Shown: piece by piece, positions 6,937 to 60,165 of the stretch | Numbering within the stretch: position 1 is the first letter of the stretch | Layout of the letters: each line of letters opens with the position of its first letter | Source: Arcobacter arenosus | GTDB taxonomy: Bacteria > Campylobacterota > Campylobacteria > Campylobacterales > Arcobacteraceae | Reading direction: 5' to 3' | Assembly (NCBI RefSeq): GCF_005771535.1 | Contig: NZ_VANU01000001.1 | Location: 1-64,000 of the forward strand | DNA length: 64,000 nt | The notes under the pieces: generated by a model | Database searches by the model: none | What the model saw: the letters and a program-made list of their open reading frames with translations, nothing else | What the model was told of the DNA's origin: nothing | Program-made: the position numbers and the translations under genes

Positions 6937-7329
6937 CTATTCTAAGAGTTTTAAATACTTCTTTTTCAATATTTCATAGTCATTTTTATTTATCACACCA
7001 ATTTTATTAAGTAATCTTTTAGTACTAAAAAGTCGCGTTTGAATCAATATAGCAGTACTTATTTTATGAGGTATAAATTTAAATTTAAAAAAGAAACTTC
7101 CTTCTCTTTGCGTTGTAGTTAAAGGTATTCCAATAAACATATCTTTTGTTAGCTTTTTATATATAATTACAGGTCGTACAAACTCTTCTTCTTTGCCATT
7201 TTGTTCAACCCCAATGTTATGTCCCATTTTTATATTAAAAATATCTCTAGTTTTAAACCCCACTAAAACCTTTTCTGTATTTGTTTCTTTTTTCACATTA
7301 TTCCATATGTCAAAATCATTTTCTATCAT
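6937..7329 (-). CDS. PemK/MazF-like protein (type II toxin family) coupled to radC
   Basis: The 130-aa protein has features of the PemK/MazF fold: GHNIGVEQNGKEEEFVRPVI, a central IGIPLTTT strand and ILIQTRLFSTKRL, then a KIGVI segment near the C-terminus. Family members cleave RNA, and many are toxins paired with a small antitoxin. No antitoxin gene is visible. The gene instead overlaps the 3' end of radC by 4 bp (ATGA), which suggests co-expression. The first about 25 residues precede the conserved domain. The family call is good. Whether it is an active toxin is unknown. Confidence 0.7.
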   Translation of the reverse strand: MIENDFDIWNNVKKETNTEKVLVGFKTRDIFNIKMGHNIGVEQNGKEEEFVRPVIIYKKLTKDMFIGIPLTTTQREGSFFFKFKFIPHKISTAILIQTRLFSTKRLLNKIGVINKNDYEILKKKYLKLLE

Positions 7330-7988
7330 AAAACACCCTCTTCTTTTAAACTTATAAAATCATCTTTTGTAAAGATTATATGGTCAAGTAGTTCTATGCC
7401 TAAGATTTGTCCTGCTTCTTTTAGCCTTTGTGTTACAGTTATATCTTCACTGCTTGGTTTTAATATTCCACTTGGGTGGTTATGGGCTACTATTATACTA
7501 GCACATCTTTTTTCTATTGCATAGGAGAATACTTCTCTTGGGTGTACTAGACTTTGGTTTAGGGTTCCTATTGTGATTACTTTGGTTTCTATTAGGTTAT
7601 TTGCTCCATCTAAATATAGACTTAGGAAATATTCTTGTTGTTTGTTTTTGTATGGGTTTAGTTCATCATACACATCTTTTGCTGATGAGATTTTATAGTG
7701 TTGAGTATCTATTAGATATCTTTTTGAGAGTTCTATTGCTGATATTATTTGACTGGCTTTTGCTTTTCCTAAACCATGGATTTTAAGTAGTGTTTCTAAA
7801 TCCATTGTTTCAAAGTTTGAGTTAAAAAACTTCTCAATCTCACGGGAGAGTTTTATTACATCTTTGCCTTTTACTCCACTTCCTAGAAGTATGGCTATAA
7901 GTTCATAGTTTTTAAGTGCTGATAATCCGTATTTATATAACCTTTCCCTTGGTTTATCAATTTCATGAAGTTGTGTAATAGTTTTCAT
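7326..7988 (-). CDS. radC: RadC family JAB-domain protein
   Basis: 220 aa, the normal length for RadC. The N-terminus has a helix-hairpin-helix region (LLKIHGLGKAKASQI, about residues 66-80), and the C-terminus carries the JAB/MPN metal motif VAHNHPSG with SSED following (about 168-180). The family is linked to DNA metabolism and mobile elements, but its biochemical role is not settled. It shares an operon with the downstream PemK-like gene. Tn554 inserts into radC in staphylococci, but this copy is intact even though a multi-recombinase element lies only 0.6 kb away. Confidence 0.9.
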   Translation of the reverse strand: MKTITQLHEIDKPRERLYKYGLSALKNYELIAILLGSGVKGKDVIKLSREIEKFFNSNFETMDLETLLKIHGLGKAKASQIISAIELSKRYLIDTQHYKISSAKDVYDELNPYKNKQQEYFLSLYLDGANNLIETKVITIGTLNQSLVHPREVFSYAIEKRCASIIVAHNHPSGILKPSSEDITVTQRLKEAGQILGIELLDHIIFTKDDFISLKEEGVL

Positions 7989-8067
7989 AAACTTTCTCCT
8001 AAGTATAAAAGAAAGTTTATCAAGTTTTAAAAGTAGTAGTTAAAAATATAACATTTTGCAATATTTT

Positions 8068-8283
8068 TTAAAATGGTTCAGATTCTTCTTTTTTATCAAC
8101 TTCAAAAATAAGCTTTGCTTCATCTAAAAGTTTTTGAGCTTCTTCTAGTTGTTTCATTCCATTTTTATATAGGTCTAAAGAATCACTTAGTGTGATTTGA
8201 GGATTAGATAATTTTTCTAAAAGTTCTTTTGCTTTTTCAATTTTTACTTCAAATGTTTGTTCTTCTTTTTGCTCTTCGCTCAT
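8068..8283 (-). CDS. xseB: Exodeoxyribonuclease VII small subunit
   Basis: A 71-aa acidic helical protein with the XseB pattern: FEVKIEKAKELLEKLSN, then LSDSLDLYKNGMKQLEEAQKLLDEA. With XseA it forms exonuclease VII, which degrades single-stranded DNA to oligonucleotides in the cytoplasm. Its start codon shares one base with the metX stop (TAATG), so the two are translationally coupled. The large subunit gene is not in the window. The length is normal for the family. Confidence 0.9.
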   Translation of the reverse strand: MSEEQKEEQTFEVKIEKAKELLEKLSNPQITLSDSLDLYKNGMKQLEEAQKLLDEAKLIFEVDKKEESEPF

Positions 8284-9389
8284 TATTTTCCTTCTAATAA
8301 ATCAACTAAATATTGATCAAATTTTTCAACTTCAACCAAAAATGAATCATGTCCTGATTTACTTTCAATCATTTTATATGTAACTTGGTCACCTTTTCCA
8401 AGTTTTATCATAATATCTCTAATCTCTTCCATCTCTTCAGGGAAAAACAACATATCATCAGAAAAAGATATAAGGTGTAATTTTGCATTAACTTTCTCAA
8501 ATGAATCTTCAAGTTTATCTTTATTTCTTCCTGCATCAAAGATATTCATTGTTTTGCAGATATAAAGATAAGATAAAGGGTCAAAGATTTTTGGAAAAGA
8601 ATATGCATTGTATTCTAAGTATCTTTCAACTTCAAATCTACCCATTAACTCATATAAACCATCTGTTCTAGCATAGTCTCTACCAAACTTTTTATTAAAT
8701 AGATTTGGACTTAGATATGCGATTAATCCTGCCATTCTTCCAATTGCAAGTCCAGGTAATCCAGAAGCTTCTAAATCACCTTTTTTATATTGTCCATCTT
8801 TAAAAGCTGGGTCATGTCTTATTGATTCTATTGCAATTTTATTAAAAGCAATTGCCCATGGTCTAGTATATGCTGTAGTAGCCAGTGCAAAAACATGCTC
8901 CGCAAAATCTGGAAATTCGATTGAGTAACATAATGCTTGCATCCCACCCATGCTTCCACCTACGACAGCTTTAGCCTTTTCAATTCCTAGTTTTTTATAA
9001 AGTCTCATTTGAGCTTTTACAATATCAGAAATCGTTAATACAGGAAATTTTAATCTATACTCTTTTTTTGTACTAGGGTCGATACTTAAAGCATTTGTTG
9101 AGCCAAAGGTACTACCAATGTTGTTTGAACAAATTACAAAATATTTTGTTGTATCAATTGCTTTACCATCTCCAATTAATTTGTCCCACCATCCTGGTTT
9201 TGCTTCATCAGCATATCGTCCAGCGGCATGATGACTCCCTGCTAAGGCATGACAAATTACAATAACATTTGATTTATCTTCATTTAATTCACCATATGTT
9301 TCATAAACAATCTCAAACTTTTCTAGAATCCTACCACTTTCTAGATATAAGGGTTCATTAAATTTTTCAGTTTTTGTTTCTAATCTCAA
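8283..9389 (-). CDS. metX: Homoserine O-acetyltransferase
   Basis: 368 aa alpha/beta hydrolase that transfers an acetyl group from acetyl-CoA to homoserine in methionine synthesis. The nucleophile elbow GGSMGGMQAL holds the catalytic Ser (about residue 146). The acid lies near FSDDMLFFPEEM, and the His is in KSGHDSFL (about 349). Length and the conserved CHALAGSHHAAG and RDYARTDGLY segments fit MetX. It is the first gene of a metX-xseB operon. No SAM or other methionine riboswitch was recognised in the short upstream gap. Confidence 0.93.
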   Translation of the reverse strand: MRLETKTEKFNEPLYLESGRILEKFEIVYETYGELNEDKSNVIVICHALAGSHHAAGRYADEAKPGWWDKLIGDGKAIDTTKYFVICSNNIGSTFGSTNALSIDPSTKKEYRLKFPVLTISDIVKAQMRLYKKLGIEKAKAVVGGSMGGMQALCYSIEFPDFAEHVFALATTAYTRPWAIAFNKIAIESIRHDPAFKDGQYKKGDLEASGLPGLAIGRMAGLIAYLSPNLFNKKFGRDYARTDGLYELMGRFEVERYLEYNAYSFPKIFDPLSYLYICKTMNIFDAGRNKDKLEDSFEKVNAKLHLISFSDDMLFFPEEMEEIRDIMIKLGKGDQVTYKMIESKSGHDSFLVEVEKFDQYLVDLLEGK

Positions 9390-9459
9390 TTTGATTCCAA
9401 AATATAATAATCTATTTTTTTTAGTGGAATATGGTATCTAAAATTTGATAAATTAGTTG

Positions 9460-9918
9460 TTAATTTTGTTTTACTAGAGATAATTGCTCATATGGAGTTT
9501 TCATTATATCTTGCCATTTTTCACTTGGTGTCCACTCATCAAAGACTTTGAAATTTATCTCTTCAAAGGGCGTATGTAAAATATGTTTGTGGTAAAGATA
9601 ACAAAATACAGTAACTCTATAATTTAGTGCACAATGAACCCAAACCTTTTTGTTTTCTAAAGAAGTTAAAAGATTCAAAAAAAGAGAAACTTGCTCTTTT
9701 TTTGGATTTTCAAAATCAACTGGGATATGAAAATATGCCATTTCTAGGTCTGTAACAGTTTTATCTTCATTTTCTATGGCATTTGAAGCATTATGTAAAG
9801 CAAGATTTATTATAACTTCAAAACCTTCGTTTTTTATATCTTCAAACTGCTTTTCTGTTGGCTGACCTGAGGTAACAAGATTTTCATTTATTTTTATGTA
9901 GTTTATAATCTCTTCCAA
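9460..9918 (-). CDS. Protein tyrosine phosphatase-like protein
   Basis: 152 aa with a dual-specificity-phosphatase-like fold: TSGQPTEKQFEDIKNEGF near the N-terminus, then VWVHCALNYRVTVF. That loop reads C-x4-R rather than the classical C-x5-R, as in a family of small phosphatase-like proteins where activity is doubtful. It overlaps the 3' end of the adenosine deaminase gene by 35 bp and probably shares its message. Substrate is unknown. Confidence 0.75.
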   Translation of the reverse strand: MEEIINYIKINENLVTSGQPTEKQFEDIKNEGFEVIINLALHNASNAIENEDKTVTDLEMAYFHIPVDFENPKKEQVSLFLNLLTSLENKKVWVHCALNYRVTVFCYLYHKHILHTPFEEINFKVFDEWTPSEKWQDIMKTPYEQLSLVKQN

Positions 9919-10906
9919 TTTCTTCTACCTTTTTTAGATATTTTTCTTTTAGTTCATCACTTATAAATGATGCTTTAAAAGAGTTTTTAACAAGTTGAAT
10001 AATATCTTCATCTGTTAATTCTAAATTATCTACAAGGTTAATATAGTTTTGATTTAAATAACCTTTAAAGTATGCTGGATCATCTGAATTAACTGTTACT
10101 AAAAGATTATAATCCAATAGCTTTTTAATATTGTGTTCTTTGTATGAGTTAAAAACTTTTAATTCAATATTTGAATTTGGACACACAGTTAAAGGTATTT
10201 GCTCCTCTTTTAATCTTTTTAATAGTTCTTTTGAATTTATTGCTTGAACCCCATGATCTATTCTTTTTACTTCTAATAAATCTAAAGCTTCATAGATATA
10301 TGAAACATCTGCTTCTTCACCGGCATGGGCAACAATCTCAAAACCCTCTTCTTTTGCTTTTTTAAAAACATCTTTAAACTTTGATGGAGGATGCCCTATT
10401 TCTGATGAGTCTAAACCTATCCCTTTAATTATATTTTTAAACACTAAGGCTTCTTCAAAAGTTTTAAAAGCGTCTTCTTGTGATAGGTGTCTTAAGAAAC
10501 ACATTATAATATGAGAGGTGATTCCATATTTTTCTTTTGCATCATCTAAGGCTTGTTTTATTCCAAGGATTACTGTTTCAAAACTTATTCCCCTTTTTGT
10601 ATGGGTTTGTGGGTCAAAAAATATCTCTGTATGAATAATATTATTCTCAACACATTTTTTTATATAAGCCCAAGTCATATCATAAAAGTCTTCTTTAGTA
10701 ATCAATACAGCCGCACCAGCATAATAGATATCTAAAAAACTTTGAAGATTTGAAAAATCATATGCTTTTTTTATCTCTTCAATACTTTTATAAGGGATAT
10801 CAATTTTATTTTTTTTAGCTAGTTTAAACATAAGTTCTGGTTCTAATGAACCCTCTATATGTAAATGAAGTTCTGCTTTTGGTAGTTTTTTTATTAGGTC
10901 AATCAT
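9884..10906 (-). CDS. add: Adenosine deaminase family protein
   Basis: I start it at ATG 10906 (MIDLIKKLPKAELHLHIEGS, 340 aa) because AGGATTG lies just upstream. An in-frame start at 10963 would add 19 unconserved residues. Metal and catalytic motifs are in order: HLHIEGS, ThG-type central region, SSEIGHPP, HAGEE and NSDDPAYF. The enzyme deaminates adenosine (or adenine, as some bacterial members prefer) to inosine or hypoxanthine for purine salvage. The C-terminal gene end overlaps the phosphatase-like gene. Confidence 0.9.
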   Translation of the reverse strand: MIDLIKKLPKAELHLHIEGSLEPELMFKLAKKNKIDIPYKSIEEIKKAYDFSNLQSFLDIYYAGAAVLITKEDFYDMTWAYIKKCVENNIIHTEIFFDPQTHTKRGISFETVILGIKQALDDAKEKYGITSHIIMCFLRHLSQEDAFKTFEEALVFKNIIKGIGLDSSEIGHPPSKFKDVFKKAKEEGFEIVAHAGEEADVSYIYEALDLLEVKRIDHGVQAINSKELLKRLKEEQIPLTVCPNSNIELKVFNSYKEHNIKKLLDYNLLVTVNSDDPAYFKGYLNQNYINLVDNLELTDEDIIQLVKNSFKASFISDELKEKYLKKVEEIGRDYKLHKNK

Positions 10907-11036
10907 AACAATCCTAAAATTTCTTTTTATTATACAATCTTTATGTGTGAAAAAAGTGTTCAATTTAACTTTAAATATTAAGTTTAAATTTTTCTTTGAA
11001 GAGTAAGATATTCAAAAATATTATTAAGGAGTTATA

Positions 11037-11771
11037 ATGAAAAAAATAGTTTCTTCTTTACTACTTGCTTCAAGTTTTTTATTGGCAAATGGTGAATATG
11101 TTACATATAATGTAGATGGGAAAGATTATCAAGGGTATTATTCAAGTCCTTCAAAAGATGCCCCTTTAGTATTTATGATACATGATTGGGATGGAATAGA
11201 CAAGTATGAAATAAAAAGAACAGAGATGTTAAATCAAATGGGTTACGCAGTTTTTGCTGCTGATATGTTTGGTAAGGGAGTAGTAGCTGATACGATAGAA
11301 AAAAGAAAAGCTTTAACAGGAGCTTTATACAAAGACAGAGAAAAAATGAGAACCTTAATACAAGGTGGTTTTGAGGAAGCAAAAAAATTAGGTGCAAATA
11401 CTAATAATGCAGTAGGTCTTGGTTATTGTTTTGGTGGTACAGTTATCTTAGAGATGGCAAGAAGTGGAGCTGAACTTAAAAAGTTTGTCCCTTTTCATGG
11501 AGGGTTAACTACTCCTGAAGGTCAAGATTATTCAAAGGTAAAAGGTGAGATTGTTGTATTTCATGGAACAGCAGACAAAGCAGTTAGTATGGATGATTTT
11601 GCTGATATAGCTAAAAGAATGGAAGCACAAAAAGTTACCCATGAGATGTTAACTTATAGTGGTGCACCCCATGCATTTACAAAGTTTGGCTCTGATAGAT
11701 ATCATGAAAGAGCAGATAAAGCTTCGTGGAAAAGATTCTCAGAAATATTAGATGAAACATTAAAAAATTAA
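11037..11771 (+). CDS. Exported dienelactone hydrolase family protein
   Basis: 244 aa with a signal peptide (MKKIVSSLLLASSFLLANG) and an alpha/beta hydrolase domain. GLGYCFGGTV carries the Cys nucleophile of the dienelactone hydrolase family. FHGTADKAVSM supplies the Asp and GAPHAFTKFGS the His. It probably hydrolyses an ester or lactone in the periplasm; the substrate is unknown. The ribosome binding site AAGGAG sits just before the ATG, and a strong terminator follows immediately. It appears to be a single-gene unit. Confidence 0.88.
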   Translation: MKKIVSSLLLASSFLLANGEYVTYNVDGKDYQGYYSSPSKDAPLVFMIHDWDGIDKYEIKRTEMLNQMGYAVFAADMFGKGVVADTIEKRKALTGALYKDREKMRTLIQGGFEEAKKLGANTNNAVGLGYCFGGTVILEMARSGAELKKFVPFHGGLTTPEGQDYSKVKGEIVVFHGTADKAVSMDDFADIAKRMEAQKVTHEMLTYSGAPHAFTKFGSDRYHERADKASWKRFSEILDETLKN

Positions 11772-11798
11772 GATAAAGGAGAAAATCCTTTATCTTTT
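11770..11798 (+). terminator. Rho-independent terminator after the dienelactone hydrolase gene
   Basis: AAGATAAAGGA and TCCTTTATCTT form a perfect 11-bp stem with a GAAAA loop, followed by TT. It begins within the stop codon of the preceding gene. Confidence 0.75.
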
Positions 11799-11800
11799 GA

Positions 11801-11806
11801 TATAAT
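11801..11806 (+). promoter_or_regulatory. -10 box for the small coiled-coil gene at 11841
   Basis: TATAAT lies directly after the terminator and 34 bp before the next start codon. A ribosome binding site (AGGAG) follows. Transcription would restart here. Confidence 0.5.
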
Positions 11807-11840
11807 TCCGGAAAATCAAAAAGATTAGACAGGAGATTAA

Positions 11841-12101
11841 ATGGATTATATCAAAGAACTTACAAACCTTATTCAAACTGACATTTTACCTGAAGTAAAT
11901 GATAATATTAAAGATATAGAAACTCAACTAGCAAAAAAGAAAAATAAAGCATTAAAAGAAGAATTAGACTATATGAAGCAAGTTAAACTTTATTTTGATG
12001 AAGTATTAATTGATATAGAAAAAAATCTTCTAACACAAGAGCAAGCCTTGGATATTTTAGAAGGACTTGAAGATATGAAAGTTGAGAATCAAGATTTTTA
12101 G
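11841..12101 (+). CDS. Small coiled-coil protein, function unknown
   Basis: 86 aa, acidic and almost wholly helical (ETQLAKKKNKALKEELDYMK, then EKNLLTQEQALDILEGLEDM). It has no signal peptide, membrane segment or catalytic motif. ACAGGAGATTAA before the ATG is a good ribosome binding site, and a -10 box lies at 11801. I do not recognise a named family. A small cytoplasmic adaptor is as much as can be inferred. Confidence 0.65.
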   Translation: MDYIKELTNLIQTDILPEVNDNIKDIETQLAKKKNKALKEELDYMKQVKLYFDEVLIDIEKNLLTQEQALDILEGLEDMKVENQDF

Positions 12102-12233
12102 AATCTCAACTTATTTACTTTATTTTATTTAAACTTAATTAAAAAAACTAACTTTTATATACCCGACAGATTTAAATTGTAAAGATATATAATTCCTACA
12201 TAAATATACTGTATTAAATTAATAAGGATTAAA

Positions 12234-13313
12234 ATGTTAGAGTTAGAAATATATCAAATTGTAAATTTATTAGGATTTATTTTAGGGTCTGCCTTTGGAA
12301 TGATTGCACAAAAAAGACAATTTTGCTTTAGTGGTTCAATAAAAGACTATATTCTTACAAAATCTACAATGAGAGGTGCTTCTGTAGTAATGGCTATGAT
12401 TGTAGCAATAATCTCTACATTTTTTGTTTCTTCATATTTTGAACTTGACTTAACTAATACAGTTTACTATAAAGACAATTTAAACTATTTTGCAATTATA
12501 TTTGGTGGTGCTTTATTTGGTGTTGGTATGATGTTAGCAGATGGTTGTAGTAATAGACATTTGATTAAGTTTGCCCAAGGGGATAAAAACTCTTTAATAA
12601 GTATTGTTTTTATTGGTATTTTTGCTTTTGCAACAACAAGAGGTTTATTAAATGGTTTTTTAGACCCATTTGTAAATAACCCTACTTTAATAGAATGGTC
12701 AAGTAAATTAGAAAACTTTACAATGAATATCTATTTTATTATTGCTGTTTTATTAATACTTTTAAAAGTTTTAGTTAGACACGCAGTAAGATTACCAAAC
12801 CTTTGGGATGGTGTTTTAATTGGATTACTTGTTGCAGCAGCTTGGTTTATAACTTCAGTTATAGGAAGTGAAAGTATCGAAAGAATGATTGACCCAGCAG
12901 GGATAACATTTGTTTATCCTACAGCTAAAACACTTGAACTGTTTATGTTATACCAAGTAAATGAACTTAGCTTTTCAATAAGTTTAATTGTAGGTATTGT
13001 ATTTGGTGCTTTCTTAATGTCAAAATTTAATAGAAAATATAGTTTTGGTTGTACTTCAGCAAAAGGTGAGCATAGAGTAAGAAATAATATGATTGGTGGA
13101 GCGATGATGGGAACAGGTGGTATCCTTTCTATTGGATGTACAGTTGGGCAAGGTTTAACGGGACTTTCAACATTGGCATTTGCTTCACTTGTGGCTATTG
13201 TTTCAATATTTGTTTCAGGATATTTTACAGCTAAATATTTAAATAAAAAAGATCAATTACCTATGTGTTTTATATTTGAATGGGGTGATAATAGAACTGA
13301 CTATCAAATATAA
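12234..13313 (+). CDS. YeeE/YedE family membrane transporter (sulfur compound uptake)
   Basis: 359 aa, about nine hydrophobic segments. The family signature appears twice, once in each half: FGVGMMLADGCSNRHLIKFA (about residue 95) and GGILSIGCTVGQGLTGLS (about 298). A third Cys motif is FGCTSAKGEHRVR. The conserved Cys residues line the pore in the thiosulfate transporter of this family, so uptake of thiosulfate or a related sulfur species is inferred. No sulfur carrier (TusA/YeeD) gene adjoins it. AAGGATT lies before the ATG. Confidence 0.88.
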   Translation: MLELEIYQIVNLLGFILGSAFGMIAQKRQFCFSGSIKDYILTKSTMRGASVVMAMIVAIISTFFVSSYFELDLTNTVYYKDNLNYFAIIFGGALFGVGMMLADGCSNRHLIKFAQGDKNSLISIVFIGIFAFATTRGLLNGFLDPFVNNPTLIEWSSKLENFTMNIYFIIAVLLILLKVLVRHAVRLPNLWDGVLIGLLVAAAWFITSVIGSESIERMIDPAGITFVYPTAKTLELFMLYQVNELSFSISLIVGIVFGAFLMSKFNRKYSFGCTSAKGEHRVRNNMIGGAMMGTGGILSIGCTVGQGLTGLSTLAFASLVAIVSIFVSGYFTAKYLNKKDQLPMCFIFEWGDNRTDYQI

Positions 13314-51265: not shown

Positions 51266-52189
51266 ATGTTAACAGAAAAAATTAGAAATAAAGAAAGTGG
51301 TATAGTTCTTTATGGAATCACACCCCCTAAAGTAAAACATACTCAAGAAGAGATTAAAGAGATTGCTTCAAGGCATGTTGATAGAATTTCTAAATTAGAT
51401 GTAGATGGATTGGTATTATATGATATCCAGGATGAATCAGATAGAACAGATGAAAAAAGACCTTTCCCTTTTATTAAAACCTTAGATCCTTGTGAATATT
51501 CACACAATTATTTGCAAGAACTAAAAACACCAAGAATAGTTTATAGGGCTGTGGGAAATTACACAAATGAGACTTTTACAAAATGGTTAGAATTTACAAG
51601 ACAAAACCAAGTTCACTCTGTATTTGTAGGAGCAGCTTCCCATGAACAAAAAAATCCTCTGACTCTAAAAGATGCTTATACTTTAAAAAAAGAAGTTAAT
51701 AAAAACCTATGTTTAGGTGGAATAGCAATTCCAGAAAGACATATGTCTAAACACAATGAACATATTAGAGTTGTTTCTAAACAAAATTCTGGTTGTGAAT
51801 ATTTTATTACTCAGTGTGTTTATGATGTTCACGCAGCTAAAACTTTTTTAACTGATTATGTAAAATATGCAAAAGAAAATTCACTTGAACTAGTACCTAT
51901 AATTTTTACACTTACGCCTTGTGGAAGTGCAAAAACTTTAGACTTTATGAAATGGCTTGGAATTAATGTACCAAACTATTTAGAAGAGGAATTAAAAGAA
52001 TCAGGTGATATTTTACAAGACTCAGTAAAATTATCAAAAGATATTTTTGAAGAGTTATATACTTTTGGACTTAAAAAAGGGATTCCTATTGGTTGTAATA
52101 TCGAAAGTGTTGCAATTAGAAAAGAGGAAATTGATGCGTCTATTGAACTTTTAAATGAAGTTAAAAAAATCATCAAAAATCATAAATAA
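51266..52189 (+). CDS. Methylenetetrahydrofolate reductase (MetF)-like protein
   Basis: 307 aa TIM-barrel protein. VYGITPPKVKHTQEEI-like start, GLVLYDIQDESDRT, SVFVGAASHEQKNP and GGIAIPERHM give the MetF-type fold, and EYFITQCVYDVHAAKTFL the substrate strand. The family uses FAD to reduce methylenetetrahydrofolate to methyl-THF. It is divergent from standard MetF, so a related folate or corrinoid role is possible. Its end overlaps the convergent cache gene by 10 bp. Confidence 0.72.
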   Translation: MLTEKIRNKESGIVLYGITPPKVKHTQEEIKEIASRHVDRISKLDVDGLVLYDIQDESDRTDEKRPFPFIKTLDPCEYSHNYLQELKTPRIVYRAVGNYTNETFTKWLEFTRQNQVHSVFVGAASHEQKNPLTLKDAYTLKKEVNKNLCLGGIAIPERHMSKHNEHIRVVSKQNSGCEYFITQCVYDVHAAKTFLTDYVKYAKENSLELVPIIFTLTPCGSAKTLDFMKWLGINVPNYLEEELKESGDILQDSVKLSKDIFEELYTFGLKKGIPIGCNIESVAIRKEEIDASIELLNEVKKIIKNHK

Positions 52190-52998
52190 ACCTTTAAAAC
52201 ATAATAACCGATTACATTTCTAGAGATATCATAAATTGGAGTATTTACTATATAAAAATAATCCATCTTATGATATTGCGTTCCATTAAAATCAATAGAA
52301 TTTAAAAAACTTATATCTTCATTTGTTTTATTTAAAAGTACAAAGTTTCTAAGTTCTTGTTCCTTTGAAAATTCAACTTTTGAGGCAACTGTTTGATATT
52401 CTTTATTCATAAGGATATATAGTTTTACCCCTTTTTTTTCAAACTCCTCTATTAAAGAATTAAAATTAGTTATTGCTTCAATTGAACCTAAATATTTACC
52501 ATCATCAATAACTGGCGAAATTCCTCTAATAAGCATTGAAAATCTACCAATCTCTATACACGAAATAGAGGTTTCATATTTTTTTACAATCTTTAAAGAA
52601 TGCCTAAAAGAATCTAAAGAATCATTTTCTCTATTTGGATCCCAAAGTCTATAAAAACTATTCAAATCTTTATCATGAACATGGATTTTAAAATCATCAA
52701 AAAGATAAGTATTTAGTAAAGATTCTTTAGATTTACTAAGGTATTTTAAACAATTACATCGTTCATTTGTTCTTAAACATTTTTTTATACTTTCATCTTT
52801 TGCTAATAAAACTGAAGCTGTCATAACAAGATTTTTATTCTTCTCAACTAAATCAGTCAATTCTTTTAGATATGAGTCTATTCTAATCTCAATTTTTTCT
52901 TGTTTTTGATTTGTTAAATAATTATCAAAAACCCAAATTAAACTAACACAACTAAATACAACAAATAGTGTAATTTTTAAAAAATTCTTATTGTTCAT
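52180..52998 (-). CDS. Stand-alone periplasmic cache-type sensor protein
   Basis: 272 aa with one N-terminal membrane helix (FLKITLFVVFSCVSLIWVF) and a periplasmic double-cache-like domain (LLIRGISPVIDDGKYLGSI, then DYFYIVNTPIYDISRNVIGY). It has no cytoplasmic output domain. Cys residues (KKCLRTNERCNCLKY) could bind a ligand or metal. It is the third gene of a regulator-kinase-sensor operon next to a sulfur reductase operon, so it probably feeds a signal to the kinase encoded just before it (11-bp overlap). Confidence 0.7.
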   Translation of the reverse strand: MNNKNFLKITLFVVFSCVSLIWVFDNYLTNQKQEKIEIRIDSYLKELTDLVEKNKNLVMTASVLLAKDESIKKCLRTNERCNCLKYLSKSKESLLNTYLFDDFKIHVHDKDLNSFYRLWDPNRENDSLDSFRHSLKIVKKYETSISCIEIGRFSMLIRGISPVIDDGKYLGSIEAITNFNSLIEEFEKKGVKLYILMNKEYQTVASKVEFSKEQELRNFVLLNKTNEDISFLNSIDFNGTQYHKMDYFYIVNTPIYDISRNVIGYYVLKVYL

Positions 52999-54154
52999 CT
53001 TCTAACTTATCCAAAAATTTTCTTTTATAAATTTCAATTTCATAGGTGAAAATTGAGCCAACATCCTCTTTTGATTCTAGTTTAACATTAATCCCATTTT
53101 TATCACAAATAGTTTTTATAATATTTAAACCTAAGCCAAAGCCACCTTGTGTTTGATCTTCCCTTGTAAATCTTTGAAAAACACTTTTTGTATCTTTTAT
53201 TCCATAGCCATAATCTTTAATTGTAAGAAAACAAGTGTCAAACTCTAATTTAAGATAAACTTCTATTTTACTTTCTGGTTTGGAATATTTAATTGCATTT
53301 ATAATTGTATTATCTATAATTCTTTGTAATTCCAAAAGATTCATATAAACAAATACTTCATTTTCTATATTAGTTTCTATTGTCATAAATTTAGATTTTG
53401 CAATATCTTCAAAGAAATCAACCCTAGTAAAAAGATACTCAGAGAGATTTATTTTGTCTTTTGAATACTTAACTTTTTGATTTTTAATATAATATTCAAT
53501 TGATTCATAATTGATTTGTATCTGCTTCAATGCAATTTTCATTCTATTTATATGTTTATTCTCACCACTTTTCCTAGCAAGTAAATCTAAATTTAAATTT
53601 ATTATTCCAAGGGGAGTTTTTAATTCATGCATTGTGTCATTAAATAGAATATTCGTATATTTTTGAACTAATTCATAAGGTTTTGAAATATTTCTAATAA
53701 TACTTCTATTTAATAATATGATGTTAATAAGAACAGAAAAAAATAAAATAGTTGCTAATAAAAGAACCTTTGAGTAATCGATTTTTGTTTCACAAATAAT
53801 AGTTGAGATGCCATAAATATTGTTATTAACATGTTTTTTATAGTAAAGGTATGGGTAATCAACAAATGTTTTAAAATTATAATTTTTTAAATCCTTTGAT
53901 AAATCATAAAGTTGCTTCTCTCCCATTTTATTTAAAAAGGCATATTTTATTTTGACACTTCTTGTTAAATTAATCTGTTCTGAGTAGATTTGATTTTCTA
54001 ATTCATTGGAATATTTCTCCAATGCCATCTCTTTTAAAATCAATTCATTTTCATAGGCATAAGATAAAGCAAAATAAACTGGTATAGTAAATAATACCAT
54101 CAATAATAAGGTATAAATATAAGCATATTTTTTCTCATCATTTTGTTGCTTCAA
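52988..54154 (-). CDS. Sensor histidine kinase
   Basis: 388 aa. Membrane helices at about 10-30 and 128-150 enclose a small periplasmic loop of about 95 residues. The kinase core has TMHELKTPLGIINLNLDLL (phospho-His), AIKYSKPESKIEV (N box) and GFGLGLNIIKTICDK (G2 box). It phosphorylates the OmpR-type regulator encoded just upstream. The genes overlap by 17 bp. Confidence 0.9.
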   Translation of the reverse strand: MKQQNDEKKYAYIYTLLLMVLFTIPVYFALSYAYENELILKEMALEKYSNELENQIYSEQINLTRSVKIKYAFLNKMGEKQLYDLSKDLKNYNFKTFVDYPYLYYKKHVNNNIYGISTIICETKIDYSKVLLLATILFFSVLINIILLNRSIIRNISKPYELVQKYTNILFNDTMHELKTPLGIINLNLDLLARKSGENKHINRMKIALKQIQINYESIEYYIKNQKVKYSKDKINLSEYLFTRVDFFEDIAKSKFMTIETNIENEVFVYMNLLELQRIIDNTIINAIKYSKPESKIEVYLKLEFDTCFLTIKDYGYGIKDTKSVFQRFTREDQTQGGFGLGLNIIKTICDKNGINVKLESKEDVGSIFTYEIEIYKRKFLDKLEDEQ

Positions 54155-54803
54155 TTTTGTATCCTAATCCCCTAGAGGATATAATAAAATCTTTATAGGT
54201 TTTAATTCTAATTTTTCTAATATACATTCTAATATCAGCATAATGAATCTCTTTCCCTTCCCACACATTTTCCCTAATTGTTTCCATATCACAAAAACAA
54301 TTTGCATTACTAACTAAAAATTCAACTAACTCTTTTTCTTTTAAGGTTAAATCAATCTCTTTGTCTTTTAATTTTAGTGTTCTGTTTTGCAAGCTAAATG
54401 TATATTCATTCATTAAATCACACAAAGAATTTTCTTTAGTATTATATTTAGTAGTAATTAAACTATTAATTCTTAGTTCTAACTCTTTTAGTTCGTAGGG
54501 TTTTTTAAGATAATCTTTACAACCAAGTTGATAACCAATTGTAATATTATCAATATCAACCAGTGAAGTAGTTATTATAATTGGAGTATCATTTCCTATA
54601 TCTTTAAGATATCTAATAACCTCATGTCCATTTAGTTTGGGCACCTTTATATCTAATATTGCTAAATAATATTTATTTTCAACTAAGGCATCTAAAGCTG
54701 ATTCTCCATCATAGAAGCTATCAACTTCATATCCAATATCTTCTAGATATTCTGTAACACTTTCATTATATATGTAATCATCTTCTAATAGTAATATTTT
54801 CAT
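54138..54803 (-). CDS. OmpR family response regulator
   Basis: 221 aa. The receiver domain (1-115) has DDYIYNESV, phospho-Asp in LAILDIKVPKLNG (about residue 52) and Lys in DYLKKPYEL. The winged-helix DNA-binding domain follows (about 130-220): LTLKEKELVEFLV and DIRMYIRKIRIKTYK. A 17-bp inverted repeat upstream of the neighbouring psr operon contains paired 7-bp half-sites that suit this type of regulator. Pairing is inferred from position. Confidence 0.92.
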   Translation of the reverse strand: MKILLLEDDYIYNESVTEYLEDIGYEVDSFYDGESALDALVENKYYLAILDIKVPKLNGHEVIRYLKDIGNDTPIIITTSLVDIDNITIGYQLGCKDYLKKPYELKELELRINSLITTKYNTKENSLCDLMNEYTFSLQNRTLKLKDKEIDLTLKEKELVEFLVSNANCFCDMETIRENVWEGKEIHYADIRMYIRKIRIKTYKDFIISSRGLGYKIEATK

Positions 54804-54865: not shown

Positions 54866-55855
54866 TTAAGATATGCCAGAAGAACCAGTAAATAACTGTC
54901 CAGCATAAACAACATAGAATCTTAGTAGTGCTACACCAACTAAAACCACAATAGAGTTAATCATAATGAATTTAACTTTATAAGCATGGTTTTTTAAAGC
55001 TGTAAAAGCAATGATTACTGGCAAGATTAATCCTAGTAAAATTACACCTAACCAAAATACAGCTGCCCATCCACCAGTACTTAATGCATCAATTGCAGCA
55101 ACTTTTGATTCTCCACCTGTATAAAGCATTCCAACAAATAACATTATTAAAAGTGGAATCTCAACCATAATAACTCTTAAATCTAACATTAAAAGGTATT
55201 TAATACTCTCTTTGTTAACACTACTTTTAAAGAACAACATTCCTACTAAAATATTCCCAGCAATTCCAGCTGAAATCCCAGATGCTAGGAATAATACAGG
55301 TAATATTGGAGAATTCCACATTGGAATACTCATATTTGCTGATAATAGAAACCCTGTATATGCTCCAACAACTAAAGCTAAAAAGAATAAGAAATATTCA
55401 GCTTTTTTAGCATATTCTGTATATCTTTTGATAAAAGCTATTACGGGTGCAAACATTTTTAAAATAGGCAATTTTTTAATTATATCTTCAAAAATTATAC
55501 CTGTAAAGATTAGTGCAAAAGGAGTGTATAAAAACAATGCTATAACACCAAGTGTCATTACAGAAGTAAAATTATAACTAATTAACAACCAATAAAATGA
55601 TAAGGGTTTACCTAAATCTAATATCAATAATCCTAAACCAATTATAATTGATACAGGAGAGATTATTGCCCCTGCTTTTACCATTGCATCCCAAATAGAA
55701 GGGTTTTTAGATTCATGATCGTGTCTATTCCATTTTACTAATAATGCAACTATAATTGAACCTGCACTGATACCTGCTAAAAACAGATATACTGCAATTG
55801 GCCAAGGCCAATTAATGACTTCATATTGAGCCATACTTCCCCACATATTATTCAT
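54866..55855 (-). CDS. psrC: NrfD/PsrC-type membrane quinol oxidoreductase subunit
   Basis: 329 aa with eight to nine membrane helices. WPWPIAVYLFLAGISAGSI at the N-terminus is the NrfD/PsrC signature. LFLASGISAGIAGNILVGML is a second family motif. It takes or gives electrons from quinol at the inner membrane and passes them to the Fe-S and molybdenum subunits. It overlaps the PsrB gene by 8 bp. The symbol follows the operon layout; PhsC is the alternative. Confidence 0.88.
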   Translation of the reverse strand: MNNMWGSMAQYEVINWPWPIAVYLFLAGISAGSIIVALLVKWNRHDHESKNPSIWDAMVKAGAIISPVSIIIGLGLLILDLGKPLSFYWLLISYNFTSVMTLGVIALFLYTPFALIFTGIIFEDIIKKLPILKMFAPVIAFIKRYTEYAKKAEYFLFFLALVVGAYTGFLLSANMSIPMWNSPILPVLFLASGISAGIAGNILVGMLFFKSSVNKESIKYLLMLDLRVIMVEIPLLIMLFVGMLYTGGESKVAAIDALSTGGWAAVFWLGVILLGLILPVIIAFTALKNHAYKVKFIMINSIVVLVGVALLRFYVVYAGQLFTGSSGIS

Positions 55856-56417
55856 AACTTACTCCTCTTTTATTTGGAACAAATGCTAATTTTGTTTTAG
55901 TACCTAAATACGCTTTTGGATATGTTAAAATATTTGAATTAGCTTTTTTATAAACATCTGATTCTTTATCATTGATATCCCCAAATGTTAATGCATCAGT
56001 TGGACACACTGTAACACATGCTGGGTCTTGACCTTTTGAAACTCTATTTGAGTAACAAAATGTACATTTGTCAATATTTTTTGTAACAGGGTCAACATAT
56101 CTCGCTTCATAAGGACAGGCAACAACACAATATTTACATGAAACACATAGATTTTGGTCAAGTTGGACAAGTCCATCTTTTGTTTGGAACGATGCCCCTG
56201 TTGGACAAACATCAACACAAGGTGCATCTTCACACATTGCACAAGATTGTCTTTTCATATCCATTTTAAGGTTAGGGAAAGTTCCTTCAGTATTTATTCT
56301 TACTTGAAGTCTAAATACATCTTCATGTACATTATTTTCACTTCTACAAGCTACACTACATGCTTGACATCCAATACATAAATTCTCATCATGTATCATT
56401 CTATAATTTTTTTTCAT
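55848..56417 (-). CDS. psrB: Four-cluster ferredoxin-type subunit (PsrB/PhsB)
   Basis: 189 aa with four [4Fe-4S] motifs: CIGCQACSVAC, CAMCEDAPCVDVCP, CVSCKYCVVACP and CTFCYS with CVTVCP. It passes electrons between the membrane subunit and the molybdenum subunit. Length and order match DMSO-reductase family electron subunits. It is 10 bp after the large subunit gene. Confidence 0.93.
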   Translation of the reverse strand: MKKNYRMIHDENLCIGCQACSVACRSENNVHEDVFRLQVRINTEGTFPNLKMDMKRQSCAMCEDAPCVDVCPTGASFQTKDGLVQLDQNLCVSCKYCVVACPYEARYVDPVTKNIDKCTFCYSNRVSKGQDPACVTVCPTDALTFGDINDKESDVYKKANSNILTYPKAYLGTKTKLAFVPNKRGVSYE

Positions 56418-56427
56418 AGCTTACCCC

Positions 56428-58722
56428 TTACGCCTTAATTATTCTTGCACCAATGTTTGTAATCATTGTTGAACAAACTGGTCCCTTTTGTAAAGACAAT
56501 AATTTACCTTGACTAGTTCCTATTCCATTGGTTCTTGTTAATTTTTCCGATTCTCTACCAAATCCCATGTAAACAAACAATGTATCAGGTCTAATCCCCT
56601 CTGTAATAAAAGCTGTAGCTTTTTCTTTTCCAACATAACTTTCAATAAAAATTTTATCTCCAGTTTTAATACCCTCTTTTTTTGCAGTAACAGGATTTAT
56701 CCAAACTGGGTTATCACTCATTAAACTATTTAGATATGGAATATTTTGTGTATGCCCATTTGTATGAATTGCTGTTTTACCTGAAGTGATAATATATGGA
56801 AATCCCTTCGCAACATCAAAATCATCTATTGCTGGAGCACCATACCCAGGGAACTCTTTTTCAACTTTCTCTGAAAAAAGTTCAATTTTTCCACTAGGAG
56901 TTTTAAACTTCATCATACTTGTCATTAATCCATCTTCATCAACATTTTCTACTGCTTTTGGATATTTGTTAACAAATTTATCTACATAATCTTTTTCCCT
57001 ATATAATAAACTTGGAATTCCAAATGATACATAACCATCTTTTACAAGTTTTTCAAGTAATTGAGTATTACCTTTTGCTTGTTGAACTCTATATTGAGTC
57101 ATATTATCCCATTTGTATGAACCATCAACATTTAATTTATTTGCTAAACTTCTAAATATTTCAGCAGTTGATAAAGTGTTATTAATTGGGTCAACGATTT
57201 TATTTCTCATTTGATACGCAGGAGCTTTTGATGATTTATCCATAATACCTTCATCTCTTTCAAGATAAGTTGCTTCTGGAATAACAACATCTGCTAACAT
57301 AGCAGTTTCACTCATATAAACATCATTTACAACAATTAAATCAAGTTTTTCCATAGCCCTTTTCATTTTTGTTGAATCAGCAACGGTAATTAATGGATTA
57401 TGTCTTGTTAATACCCATGCTTTTACCTCATATGGAATTCCTGTCATAATTGCATTTGGAATATCCATTAAAACACCATTTTTTCTAGAAACAAAAACAT
57501 TTTCCTCACCTTTTTCACCCGCTTTATCAATTCTTAGTTCTTTTAGAATTTTAATTGCTTTATCAGGATTTCCAATGGTAGGTGCAATATCTACTTTTGC
57601 TAGTTTATTTACAGTTTTAGCTTTTTTTGTCATATATAAACCACCCTCTTTTTCGAGGTTACCCATAAGTGCATTTGCAACTAAAATAGCTCTTGTTCTT
57701 TGATATTCACTTGGACCTGTTGTAGTTTTATGTCCCCAATCAATAATAACTCTAGGAGCTGCAGCAGCTATCTCTTTTGCAACTCTTTCTGCAACTTCAG
57801 ATTTAATTCCTGTGATTTTTTCTTGCCATATAGGAGTTGTATCTTTTGTATTTTCAATAATTTTTTCAATACCTATAGTATATTTATCAACAAATTCTTT
57901 GTCATAAGTTCCATCTCTTAACCATACATGTATTAAAGATAAAACAAAGGCAAGATCAGTTCCAGGTTTAACAGCATGCCACTCATCTGCTTTTGCTGCA
58001 ACAATTGAAAACCTTGGGTCTAATACTACAAGTTTAGTTTTATCAGAGTTTGCAGCATTTGCTAATTTTTTTGTTTTACTTACATCAATACCTTCAAATA
58101 GGTTATGCCCAAAATTTAAAATATAATCTGCATTAGAAAAGTCTCTTTTCAAACCTGTTCCATATGTATGGGGAAAAGCAATTTTATAAGAAACTGGACA
58201 TGAACTTACATGTGAGAAAATATTTGGACTACCATAAGCACTTGCAAATGTAGCCATATTATGATGGTGATCCCCTGTTTTTGCGGAAAAGATAACTGAT
58301 TTAGCACCATATTCCTCTTTTATTTTTGCTAATTTTTTAGCAATAAATTCTAATGCTTCTTCATTAGTTACTTCCATCCATTTGTTTTCACCCCTTTGCC
58401 CTACTCTAATTAAAGGTTTTACTAATCTTTCTTTATCATAAAGTTGAGAGTGTCCTGCTGCGCCTCTTGCGCATACTGAAGTTTTCATCCCTTTCGAATG
58501 TTTATTACCTTGAATGAATTTTATTTTTCCATTTTCTACTTTTGCTGTTATTTGACATCTACTACTACACATCTCGCAATAAGAGTTAACAGTTTTGTTT
58601 CCACCTGAAAATACTGGATTATCAAGAGAACCTAACTTACCTGCCATGCAAGAGGTACCTGCAATAGCAGCAGTTGCTGAAGTAGCTTTTAGAAAATCTC
58701 TTCTATTAAATGTACTACTCAT
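56428..58722 (-). CDS. psrA: Tat-exported molybdopterin oxidoreductase, PsrA/PhsA-like
   Basis: 764 aa. The twin-arginine signal is NRRDFLKATSATAAIAG. A [4Fe-4S] site follows (CEMCSSRCQI and later CARGAAG), and the Mo ligand is probably Cys in SHVSSCPVSYK (about residue 174). LNFGHNLFEGID, VLDPRFS and DWGHKTTTGPSEYQ fit the fold. It reduces polysulfide or thiosulfate in the periplasm, or a related sulfur or arsenic compound; the exact substrate cannot be settled. First gene of the operon. Confidence 0.9.
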   Translation of the reverse strand: MSSTFNRRDFLKATSATAAIAGTSCMAGKLGSLDNPVFSGGNKTVNSYCEMCSSRCQITAKVENGKIKFIQGNKHSKGMKTSVCARGAAGHSQLYDKERLVKPLIRVGQRGENKWMEVTNEEALEFIAKKLAKIKEEYGAKSVIFSAKTGDHHHNMATFASAYGSPNIFSHVSSCPVSYKIAFPHTYGTGLKRDFSNADYILNFGHNLFEGIDVSKTKKLANAANSDKTKLVVLDPRFSIVAAKADEWHAVKPGTDLAFVLSLIHVWLRDGTYDKEFVDKYTIGIEKIIENTKDTTPIWQEKITGIKSEVAERVAKEIAAAAPRVIIDWGHKTTTGPSEYQRTRAILVANALMGNLEKEGGLYMTKKAKTVNKLAKVDIAPTIGNPDKAIKILKELRIDKAGEKGEENVFVSRKNGVLMDIPNAIMTGIPYEVKAWVLTRHNPLITVADSTKMKRAMEKLDLIVVNDVYMSETAMLADVVIPEATYLERDEGIMDKSSKAPAYQMRNKIVDPINNTLSTAEIFRSLANKLNVDGSYKWDNMTQYRVQQAKGNTQLLEKLVKDGYVSFGIPSLLYREKDYVDKFVNKYPKAVENVDEDGLMTSMMKFKTPSGKIELFSEKVEKEFPGYGAPAIDDFDVAKGFPYIITSGKTAIHTNGHTQNIPYLNSLMSDNPVWINPVTAKKEGIKTGDKIFIESYVGKEKATAFITEGIRPDTLFVYMGFGRESEKLTRTNGIGTSQGKLLSLQKGPVCSTMITNIGARIIKA

Positions 58723-58754
58723 TTTTGATCCTTTTAAATATTGATAATGAAATC

Positions 58755-58874
58755 TTAATACTAGTATGTAAATTTAATGTAAATCTCATATTAAATCTCA
58801 CTTTAAGTTTATATAATTTAGATAAATCTATTTTTGCCTTTACATTTACATTAAATTTACTAAATAGGTATAAA
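58755..58874. promoter_or_regulatory. Divergent psrA / radical-SAM promoter region with 17-bp inverted repeat
   Basis: GTAAATTTAATGTAAAT (58768-58784) and ATTTACATTAAATTTAC (58844-58860) are perfect inverses 59 bp apart. Each arm holds TGTAAAT-type half-sites with 11-bp spacing. The left arm is 7 bp from a psrA -10 (TATTAA, 58760-58755), and the right arm 8 bp from a -10 for the radical SAM gene (TATAAA, 58869-58874). This suits an activator that works both ways. Confidence 0.65.
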
Positions 58875-58893
58875 CTTCTAGAAAGGATTAAAA

Positions 58894-60165
58894 ATGATTA
58901 ACAATATGAAAAATATACTTTTTAATAACATTGTAAATAATATAGTTGATAAAACTTTTGAGTCGTCCGTTAAGATTATAAAAACCCAAAAAAATGATTC
59001 TAAATTTAATCATATCAATAACGACATCTCTTATCTTCTTTATTTACATATCCCATTTTGCGACAATCTTTGTCCATTTTGCACTTTTCACAAATACAGT
59101 CATAATATGAAAACTTCTACAAAATATTTTGAAAATTTAAGAGAAGAGATAAAAATACTTAAATCCCATAATGTAAAAATTGACTCTATTTATATAGGTG
59201 GAGGAAGTCCACTTATAAACGATGTAGAGTTATTAAAAACATTAAAACTTTTAAAAAAATGTTTTGATGTAGATGATGTATCTTGTGAGACAGATCCAAA
59301 TCATATTGAAGTTGAAACTGTAAAAAAATTAAAAGGTTATGTGAGAAGATTATCCATTGGTGTTCAAAGTTTTAATGATACCTTATTAAAACAATTGGGA
59401 AGATTTGACAAATTTGGTGATGTTAAGTCATTAATAAAAAAAATCAAAGCTGTACAAGGAATCTTACCTATGACAAATATTGATTTGATATTTAATCTTC
59501 CAAATCAAACAGAAAAAATGTTAAGAGATGATATAAAAATAGCAAAATCACTTGGAATTGAACAAGTAGTTGCATATCCACTAATGAGTTCAACCCTTAA
59601 TTCAAAATTTACAAATAGATTTGAGCCAAACAATAATAAAGAACATTTTTATAATATCATAAATGAAGAATTAAAAGATTATCATGCTAATAACATGTGG
59701 TCATTTTCAAGGGATAAAGTTAATATGAATGATGAATATATCTCAACTCACAACGAATATATAGGACTTGGAAGTGGCGCTTTTTCTTATTTAGAGGGAA
59801 AATTATTTATTAATGCATTTGACTTAGAAAAATATGAAGAGTTATTAAAAACAAAAAAAGACACGATTTTAGCAAAAAGTGAATTTAGTAAAAAAAATGT
59901 AATTCAATACTATATCTTATGCACTCTATTTTCTGGTACTTTTGATATAAAAGCTTATAACAAAAAATTTAAAATTAGTTTAGAAAAAGTTTTAGGAAAA
60001 GAACTATTTATTCTTAAAAATTTTGGAATTATTTATATTGAAGATGATGTTATTAATTTAACAAAAAAAGGAAGATATATTCTTACAGTTATGATGTCAA
60101 ACTTTTACTCTCAAATGGATAAAGTAAGAGCTTTATTTAGAAACAAAAGCTATTTATTTAACTAA
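58894..60165 (+). CDS. HemN/HemW-like radical SAM protein
   Basis: 423 aa. The radical SAM cluster motif is FCDNLCPFCTFHKY (CX3CX2C, about residue 56). IYIGGGSPLIN and CETDPNHIEVET follow, then LSIGVQSFNDTLLKQLGR and a HemN-type C-terminal region. The family uses AdoMet radicals and includes oxygen-independent coproporphyrinogen oxidase and heme chaperones. It shares its divergent control region with psrA, so a job in anaerobic life is likely. GAAAGGATTAAAA precedes the ATG. Confidence 0.8.
   Translation: MINNMKNILFNNIVNNIVDKTFESSVKIIKTQKNDSKFNHINNDISYLLYLHIPFCDNLCPFCTFHKYSHNMKTSTKYFENLREEIKILKSHNVKIDSIYIGGGSPLINDVELLKTLKLLKKCFDVDDVSCETDPNHIEVETVKKLKGYVRRLSIGVQSFNDTLLKQLGRFDKFGDVKSLIKKIKAVQGILPMTNIDLIFNLPNQTEKMLRDDIKIAKSLGIEQVVAYPLMSSTLNSKFTNRFEPNNNKEHFYNIINEELKDYHANNMWSFSRDKVNMNDEYISTHNEYIGLGSGAFSYLEGKLFINAFDLEKYEELLKTKKDTILAKSEFSKKNVIQYYILCTLFSGTFDIKAYNKKFKISLEKVLGKELFILKNFGIIYIEDDVINLTKKGRYILTVMMSNFYSQMDKVRALFRNKSYLFN

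Follow-up and report, generated by a model that had tools for sequence, protein, structure and literature searches.

A shared OmpR/PhoB-type promoter box probably couples the psr operon to an MqnK-like radical SAM gene in Arcobacter arenosus

The window, the whole stretch of 64,000 nucleotides of Arcobacter arenosus DNA analysed here, carries a perfect inverted repeat between psrA and a divergent radical SAM gene. The inverted pair consists of a promoter box, ATTTACATWAAATTTAC (two TTTAC at an 11-bp step), present once for each gene, rather than of a mirror element; the symmetry arises because divergent genes use the same box. From comparison with related loci, both promoters are probably activator-dependent: the OmpR/PhoB-type response regulator of the psr gene run (Table 1) would bind both boxes and co-induce the psr operon and the radical SAM gene, whose product is MqnK-like.

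Table 1. Features of the psr–radical SAM region (positions in the window)
Feature	Position	Strand	Remarks
dCache_3 protein	52180..52998	-	PF14827; overlaps kinase gene; proposed third (sensing) part
Sensor histidine kinase	52988..54154	-	HATPase_c; overlaps regulator gene; conserved order
OmpR/PhoB-type response regulator	54138..54803	-	PF00072 and PF00486 above cut-off; in psr gene run; candidate box ligand
psrC, NrfD-type membrane subunit	54866..55855	-	PF03916
psrB, 4Fe-4S subunit	55848..56417	-	Fer4 families
psrA/phsA, molybdopterin catalytic subunit, polysulfide or thiosulfate reductase	56428..58722	-	NF012032, 1058.5 bits against a cut-off of 694
Predicted -10 of psrA, TAAGAT	58752..58757	-	10 bp after box
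Putative regulator box of psrA	58768..58783	-	TTTACATTAAATTTAC; TTTAC at 58779-58783 and 58768-58772; kept in relatives
Putative regulator box of radical SAM gene	58845..58860	+	TTTACATTAAATTTAC; half-sites 58845-58849 and 58856-58860; kept in relatives
Predicted -10 of radical SAM gene, TAAACT	58871..58876	+	Conserved register; alternative TATAAA at 58869-58874
Radical SAM gene, MqnK/MenK-like menaquinone methyltransferase candidate	58894..60165	+	NF006385, 480.1 bits against a cut-off of 355

The psr genes and the radical SAM protein

The leftward run that begins at 58722 comprises psrA, psrB, psrC and the genes for the regulator, the kinase and the dCache_3 protein, with short gaps or overlaps between them. 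A catalytic subunit, a 4Fe-4S subunit and an NrfD-type anchor in one run are the make-up of PsrABC/PhsABC. The best PDB match of the catalytic subunit is 2vpw, and the model it matches, NF012032, is named for thiosulfate reductase PhsA.

The radical SAM gene is the only one in the genome above the cut-off of NF006385, a family listed as coproporphyrinogen oxidase-like. Judged by its sequence, the protein probably tailors the membrane electron carrier needed by the sulfur reductase. Four of the six signature motifs of menaquinone methyltransferases (MKMT; the list in Table 2 of PMC10320005) are exact in it, and the best matches anywhere in the protein to GxxFxxxYxGGGT and QxTxYPLx are 4/7 and 4/5 respectively. 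All six motifs are found in the boxed relatives of L300, L301 and L069; in Sulfurospirillum-type proteins two or three are off by a letter each. In the gene tree a long branch inside the MKMT-like group unites the window protein with its Arcobacteraceae orthologs; one further radical SAM protein, that of G049, failed the motifs and lies outside all tree groups. The HemN model TIGR00538 gives 107.3 bits (cut-off 324.95), and GPRYTSYPTA, present in the genome's own HemN, is absent from the window translation by eye. The HemW model TIGR00539 gives 166.6 bits (cut-off 205.4), and HNxxYW is absent. The only matches of the protein in a PDB search, at E up to 1e-5, were HemN (1olt) and NocN.

A second MqnK-like gene is found in G007 (L247, 6596-13921), in an mcc-like cluster and with no box in register upstream: the one-mismatch repeat at 267 bp has no -10 in register. 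Its neighbours encode a CXXCH protein (Pfam match just below the cut-off), an FKBP-type isomerase, NrfC- and NrfD-like subunits and a CcsB/ResB-like protein, which is the make-up of the mcc sulfite-respiration cluster.

MqnK makes methylmenaquinone, methylation of menaquinone lowers its redox potential, and polysulfide respiration of Wolinella depends on methylmenaquinone (PMC6682613, PMC13209400); the resemblance of the window protein to MqnK/MenK, taken with this dependence, would supply the reason for co-control. The protein could instead be a heme chaperone or another maturase, with co-control serving cofactor supply. CgdH2 of Campylobacter jejuni, from the MenK branch, binds heme and is reported as a heme chaperone, methylation being left open by the authors (PMC10320005), and two of the six motifs are imperfect in the window protein. 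This function is nevertheless unlikely, given HemN and HemW scores below the cut-offs, the lack of HNxxYW and the place of the G007 second copy in a sulfur cluster. That Psr complexes contain no heme in the known structure also counts against it.

The box in related loci

Twelve (L062-L073) of the 80 related loci were read for neighbours, and contigs of equal length were treated as one genome and counted once (L289 with L062, L294 with L064, L297 with L065 and L295 with L073). In the Arcobacteraceae the box precedes psrA in all six psr loci (the window, G007, G027, G204, CECT 8985 and Malaciobacter halophilus, the last with one mismatch); the radical SAM gene is likewise boxed in six of six. 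The Sulfurospirillum-type radical SAM gene lies convergent at the far end of the locus and carries a box with at most one mismatch in 14/14 genomes. A perfect box stands before the upstream psrA2 in each of the 11 loci whose stretch covers its start; the psrA that adjoins the regulator is unboxed in 13 of 13. This unboxed psrA may be read through from psrA2: in L291 it is preceded by psrA2B2C2 and a FIST-PAS-GGDEF-EAL gene, no gap exceeding 90 bp, so that one long operon from the boxed psrA2 promoter is possible. The FIST-PAS-GGDEF-EAL protein itself (945 residues; L291, 4643-7480) is encoded between the two psrABC sets and its gene abuts psrA1.

L300 and L301 have the divergent layout and both boxes, those of the radical SAM gene with one mismatch. 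In L069 the radical SAM gene comes first in its run, behind a perfect box, and psrB, psrC, regulator and kinase genes lie directly 3' of it (7158-12682); psrA was not found in the L069 stretch examined. Each of these three layouts has a boxed radical SAM gene: the divergent one of the Arcobacteraceae, L300 and L301, the convergent one of the Sulfurospirillum type, with the gene at the far end, and that of L069, where the gene heads the run. By the well-supported branches of its tree, linkage of the gene to psr must have changed at least twice.

Campylobacter-type psrA is boxed in four of seven loci (perfectly in L054, L302 and L306, with one mismatch in L071); the psrA of L303-L305, close relatives in which the regulator is present, has no box. 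The Campylobacter-type radical SAM gene is unlinked to psr, and five of ten such genes (L308, L309, L311, L313, L317) have no box. In L248 the unlinked gene has a box with one mismatch and a -10 at 9 bp. In the close relatives L310, L312, L314 and L315 the box is perfect and the only -10-like hexamer lies 13 bp on; three of these four genomes (G205, G320, G292) are those with the unboxed psrA. The 16-mer in the four loci, TTTACTCAAAATTTAC, lies ~96 bp upstream of the gene, and the same 16-mer stands before the G007 radical SAM gene. No box was found at the unlinked radical SAM genes of the regulator-less genomes G048, G026 and G016. The boxed radical SAM promoter of L053 has TATAAA in place of a hexamer ending in T; the radical SAM box of G055 is at 204 bp (within 250 bp), with the hexamer TATAAA. 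In L053 (6273-8532) and L301 (7145-9435) psrA matches in pieces, in at least two frames, owing to true breaks or to sequencing errors.

Malaciobacter halophilus has the regulator and the boxed psrA, with no radical SAM gene within the 20.7 kb stretch; its sole radical SAM match at E up to 1e-30 (59 percent) was located on a different contig, 9.8 kb long. This unlinked gene is a clean test of the box: a blind check revealed TTTACATTAAATTTAC, the 16-mer of the window, upstream of it, with TAGAAT 10 bp on. Some related bacteria keep the box where the radical SAM gene has relocated. The earlier note had tied the radical SAM gene of the window to sulfur respiration, and the comparison points the same way, psr neighbourhood and box following the gene through three arrangements and one relocation.

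Counts over 30 loci, which describe more than they test because the patterns were shaped on known sites and many promoters are close relatives, place a box with both TTTAC exact in the 300 bp upstream of 19/39 psrA/radical SAM ORFs against 0/397 other ORFs. With at most one mismatch the figures are 29/39 and 18/397, and for box plus -10 within 250 bp they are 25/39 and 5/397. The 14 psrA/radical SAM ORFs missed by the last pattern are regulator-side Sulfurospirillum-type psrA, unlinked radical SAM genes, ORF fragments, M. halophilus psrA (one mismatch in the box) and the G055 radical SAM gene (hexamer TATAAA). Across five whole genomes the exact box plus -10 pattern has 20 matches (reversed control 12). 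Eight of these are psrA or radical SAM promoters; the other 12 have no common target by the first residues of the downstream ORFs. In the A. arenosus genome the other exact matches comprise one without an ORF of at least 60 residues starting within 300 bp and one 182 bp from a 104-residue ORF. The bare TTTAC-N6-TTTAC repeat is not enriched in this genome (27 matches against 52 in the reversed control), so that most copies outside these promoters are probably due to chance.

The psr-linked regulator

The psr-linked regulator is OmpR-type, not an AraC-type protein like PsrR. Its nearest named relatives are from Arcobacter sp. CECT 8985 and M. halophilus, and D51 and K101 are invariant in four orthologs. 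In a tree of 33 regulators a 100/99 branch splits 22 of the psr group from 11 paralogs; the former include that of L070, with a regulator and no psrA in the contig, and L307 (G091), with no psr genes in the stretch examined, was counted as a paralog locus. The putative recognition helix, placed as in the OmpR family, has the sequence ADIRMYIRKIR in the Arcobacter and Sulfurospirillum types, apart from one change in M. halophilus, and mostly ADIRMHVLKIR in the Campylobacter type, whether psrA is boxed or not; the paralogs differ.

A close regulator (E at most 1e-66, a threshold chosen after the list was seen) is present in five of 60 genomes (A. arenosus and relatives), and all five also have psrA and a radical SAM homolog. 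Among the 60, seven have psrA with E no higher than 1e-100, and nine have a radical SAM homolog above 140 bits; the chance of five out of five falling among these nine is near 2e-5, calculated by hand and ignoring kinship. G048 and G046 have no close regulator; their psrA genes, distant copies at 43 and 31 percent identity, are both unboxed.

The dCache gene adjoins the kinase gene in most psr loci read; it is ~4 kb off in L303-L305 and was not found in L071. The separate dCache protein is the likely sensor. The trio of dCache protein, kinase and regulator recurs in paralogous systems, for example L055 in the same genome, which suggests a family of three-part two-component systems.

Since the regulator has 48 other matches in its own genome, a different protein could bind the boxes, either a paralog (for example that of the tripartite set G000:C1:325475) or a global OmpR-type regulator, which would leave something else for the neighbouring regulator to control. 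A paralogous regulator-kinase-sensor set is indeed encoded in the same genome, and such a set adjoins the boxed psrA2 in Sulfurospirillum-type loci. We consider this quite unlikely: all six boxed Arcobacteraceae loci have the psr-linked regulator in the run, the paralogs fall in a clade of their own and differ in the putative recognition helix, the psr-less paralog loci L055-L060 show no box with a -10 (score of at least 12, ORF of at least 150 residues), and psrA in genomes without the regulator is unboxed, if only in two distant copies. Assignment of both sites to the nearby regulator, as first proposed from the window, draws comparative support from the 100/99 clade, the co-occurrence in 5/60 genomes and the absence of the box from those two psrA genes.

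Register of the box and the -10 hexamer

Box and -10 keep a nearly fixed distance. In 45 boxed promoters (the psr-linked genes and the M. halophilus gene, with the box chosen without the -10 and the -10 defined by T1, A2, T6 and at least four matches) the spacing is 10 bp in 35, 11 bp in eight and otherwise in two. Both exceptions are radical SAM promoters, of G055 and of L293, and in the latter three tandem half-sites shifted the choice of box one step upstream. These half-sites of L293 are all TTTAC-type and follow one another in 11-bp steps. An earlier set of 31 promoters, many of them found by a score including the -10, gave 10 bp in 28 and 11 bp in three, with any other spacing from 2 to 21 bp in at most two. 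TAAGAT, the predicted -10 of psrA, is likewise found in four of the five other Arcobacteraceae loci and at Sulfurospirillum-type psrA2.

The earlier note had set the -10 boxes 7–8 bp from the repeats; TATTAA and TATAAA are indeed present there, but the conserved hexamers are TAAGAT and TAAACT at 10 bp. Its reading of the half-sites as tandem and OmpR-type stands, the 11-bp direct repeat recurring at a near-fixed distance from the -10 in four Campylobacterota groups (Arcobacteraceae, Sulfurospirillum type, L069 and Campylobacter type). Direct half-sites 11 bp apart and a box that covers the -35 at a short, fixed distance from the -10 are features of a PhoB-type box, and the boxes here show them.

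Activation fits, because the box sits at the -35 place and keeps the -10 register, as with PhoB and as argued for PceP. A box over the -35 region of both promoters would also suit a repressor that covers them and keeps both genes off until a signal arrives. Such a role is distinctly improbable: a repressor does not need the 10–11 bp spacing kept in 43/45 diverged promoters, and PceP, with repeats over the -35, is read as an activator by its authors (PMC7755780).

The inverted repeat

The arms GTAAATTTAATGTAAAT (58768-58784) and ATTTACATTAAATTTAC (58844-58860) are exact reverse complements over 17 bp. Dinucleotide shuffling of the 171 bp between psrA and the radical SAM gene, repeated 2000 times, produced a perfect non-overlapping 17-bp inverted repeat once; a repeat search across the whole window gave matches no more numerous than in shuffles. 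Across the 3.13-Mb genome the 17-mer occurs exactly twice, and the next best among the copies listed have two mismatches. Each arm is a tandem TTTAC with an 11-bp step, oriented to its own gene. The perfect repeat was correctly described in the earlier note, as were two TGTAAAT-type half-sites per arm at 11 bp, save that one of the four is AGTAAAT; the mirror-image layout that it described for the sites serves no conserved function by itself. Identical arms are found only in the window among seven divergent loci, the box pair differing by at least one base in the six others, and the boxes are 61 bp apart in the window against 27–32 bp in L051, L052, L062, L288, L300 and L301. What is kept is the single box.

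The segment 58784-58844 of the window thus has ~30 bp extra between the boxes relative to these six, near three helical turns. A third TTTAC (58839-58843) lies just 5' of the radical SAM box, 6 bp off register.

A cruciform, terminator, RNA element or chance origin, for which the perfect 17-bp complementarity might speak, is scarcely credible, in view of the shuffles, of arm identity and distance that vary while the single box is conserved, and of the arms' position upstream of both proposed -10s, by which neither transcript would hold both arms; the hairpin or terminator reading was dropped, with no terminator-like site found.

Discussion

The preferred reading, two divergent promoters activated from like boxes, can be set out as a sequence of steps. 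The kinase would phosphorylate the regulator in response to a sulfur-related signal, for which the dCache protein is the probable sensor. A regulator dimer would bind head-to-tail on each 16-bp direct-repeat OmpR/PhoB-type box, 10 bp upstream of the -10 and in the place of a -35, and recruit RNA polymerase. One promoter would then express psrABC with regulator, kinase and sensor, positive feedback being expected because the regulator lies in the psr gene run. The other would express the MqnK-like methyltransferase, which would convert menaquinone into low-potential 8-methylmenaquinone, an electron carrier suited to polysulfide (or thiosulfate) reduction. Regulator binding, activation, the signal and quinone methylation are what we infer here from comparative data. 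The unboxed psrA of L303-L305 does not fit the model. The unlinked Campylobacter-type radical SAM genes, unboxed or out of register, also speak against it, as do the unboxed regulator-side psrA of the Sulfurospirillum type, the TATAAA of L053 and the helix common to Campylobacter-type regulators with boxed and with unboxed psrA.

We lean, by a little, towards seeing the three-part system as a quinone-matching switch, in which one operator induces a low-potential sulfur reductase together with a menaquinone-remodelling enzyme whose gene came under this operator, or retained it, across several arrangements and lineages. The mechanism of control is of a known kind; the literature searched gave no description of a regulon linking a sulfur reductase to a probable quinone-modifying enzyme, of a two-component system for psr, of mqnK together with psr or of the TTTACAT repeat. 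The parts of a 2019 review of Campylobacterota respiratory regulation used here name the AraC-type PsrR of Wolinella as psr regulator and give menaquinone and methylmenaquinone without functional distinction so far (PMC6682613). If true, the shared operator would show quinone being matched to electron acceptor by transcription. The result offers a 16-bp box with defined geometry and places a radical SAM family listed as coproporphyrinogen oxidase-like in a metabolic context.

Comparison with known systems

The pho box takes the place of the -35, with about 10 bp between it and the downstream -10, and has the half-site CTGTCAT. DccR of C. jejuni binds tandem TTCAC-type half-sites. PhoB and the window system share an OmpR/PhoB-family regulator and two 11-bp direct repeats, the arrangement of the Escherichia coli pho box (PMC3978041); in the window the half-site is TTTACAT, the proposed targets serve sulfur respiration and, probably, quinone modification, and the regulator is encoded within the target run. 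PceP (RR2) of Sulfurospirillum is, like the window regulator, an OmpR-family protein of Campylobacterota, and it controls an anaerobic respiration, as is proposed for the window regulator. It serves tetrachloroethene respiration and binds in gel shifts, with CTATA repeats six nucleotides apart that overlap the -35 (PMC7755780), and differs from the window system in its half-site and in the length of its operator (CTATW-N17-CTATW), besides having other targets and another sensor. HP1043/HsrA of Helicobacter pylori is OmpR-type and was footprinted on TTTAAG direct repeats centred 11 bp apart (PMC5253667), the same step as in the window, but it is an orphan regulator that works independently of phosphorylation (PMC8345958). 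PsrR of Wolinella succinogenes regulates PsrABC (PMC6682613) and differs from the window regulator in being an AraC-family protein outside the two-component systems. The class C radical SAM enzymes MqnK/MenK resemble the window protein in belonging to a HemN-like group with motifs that are largely present in it; the window protein differs in two imperfect motifs of six and in a regulation tied to psr by the shared box.
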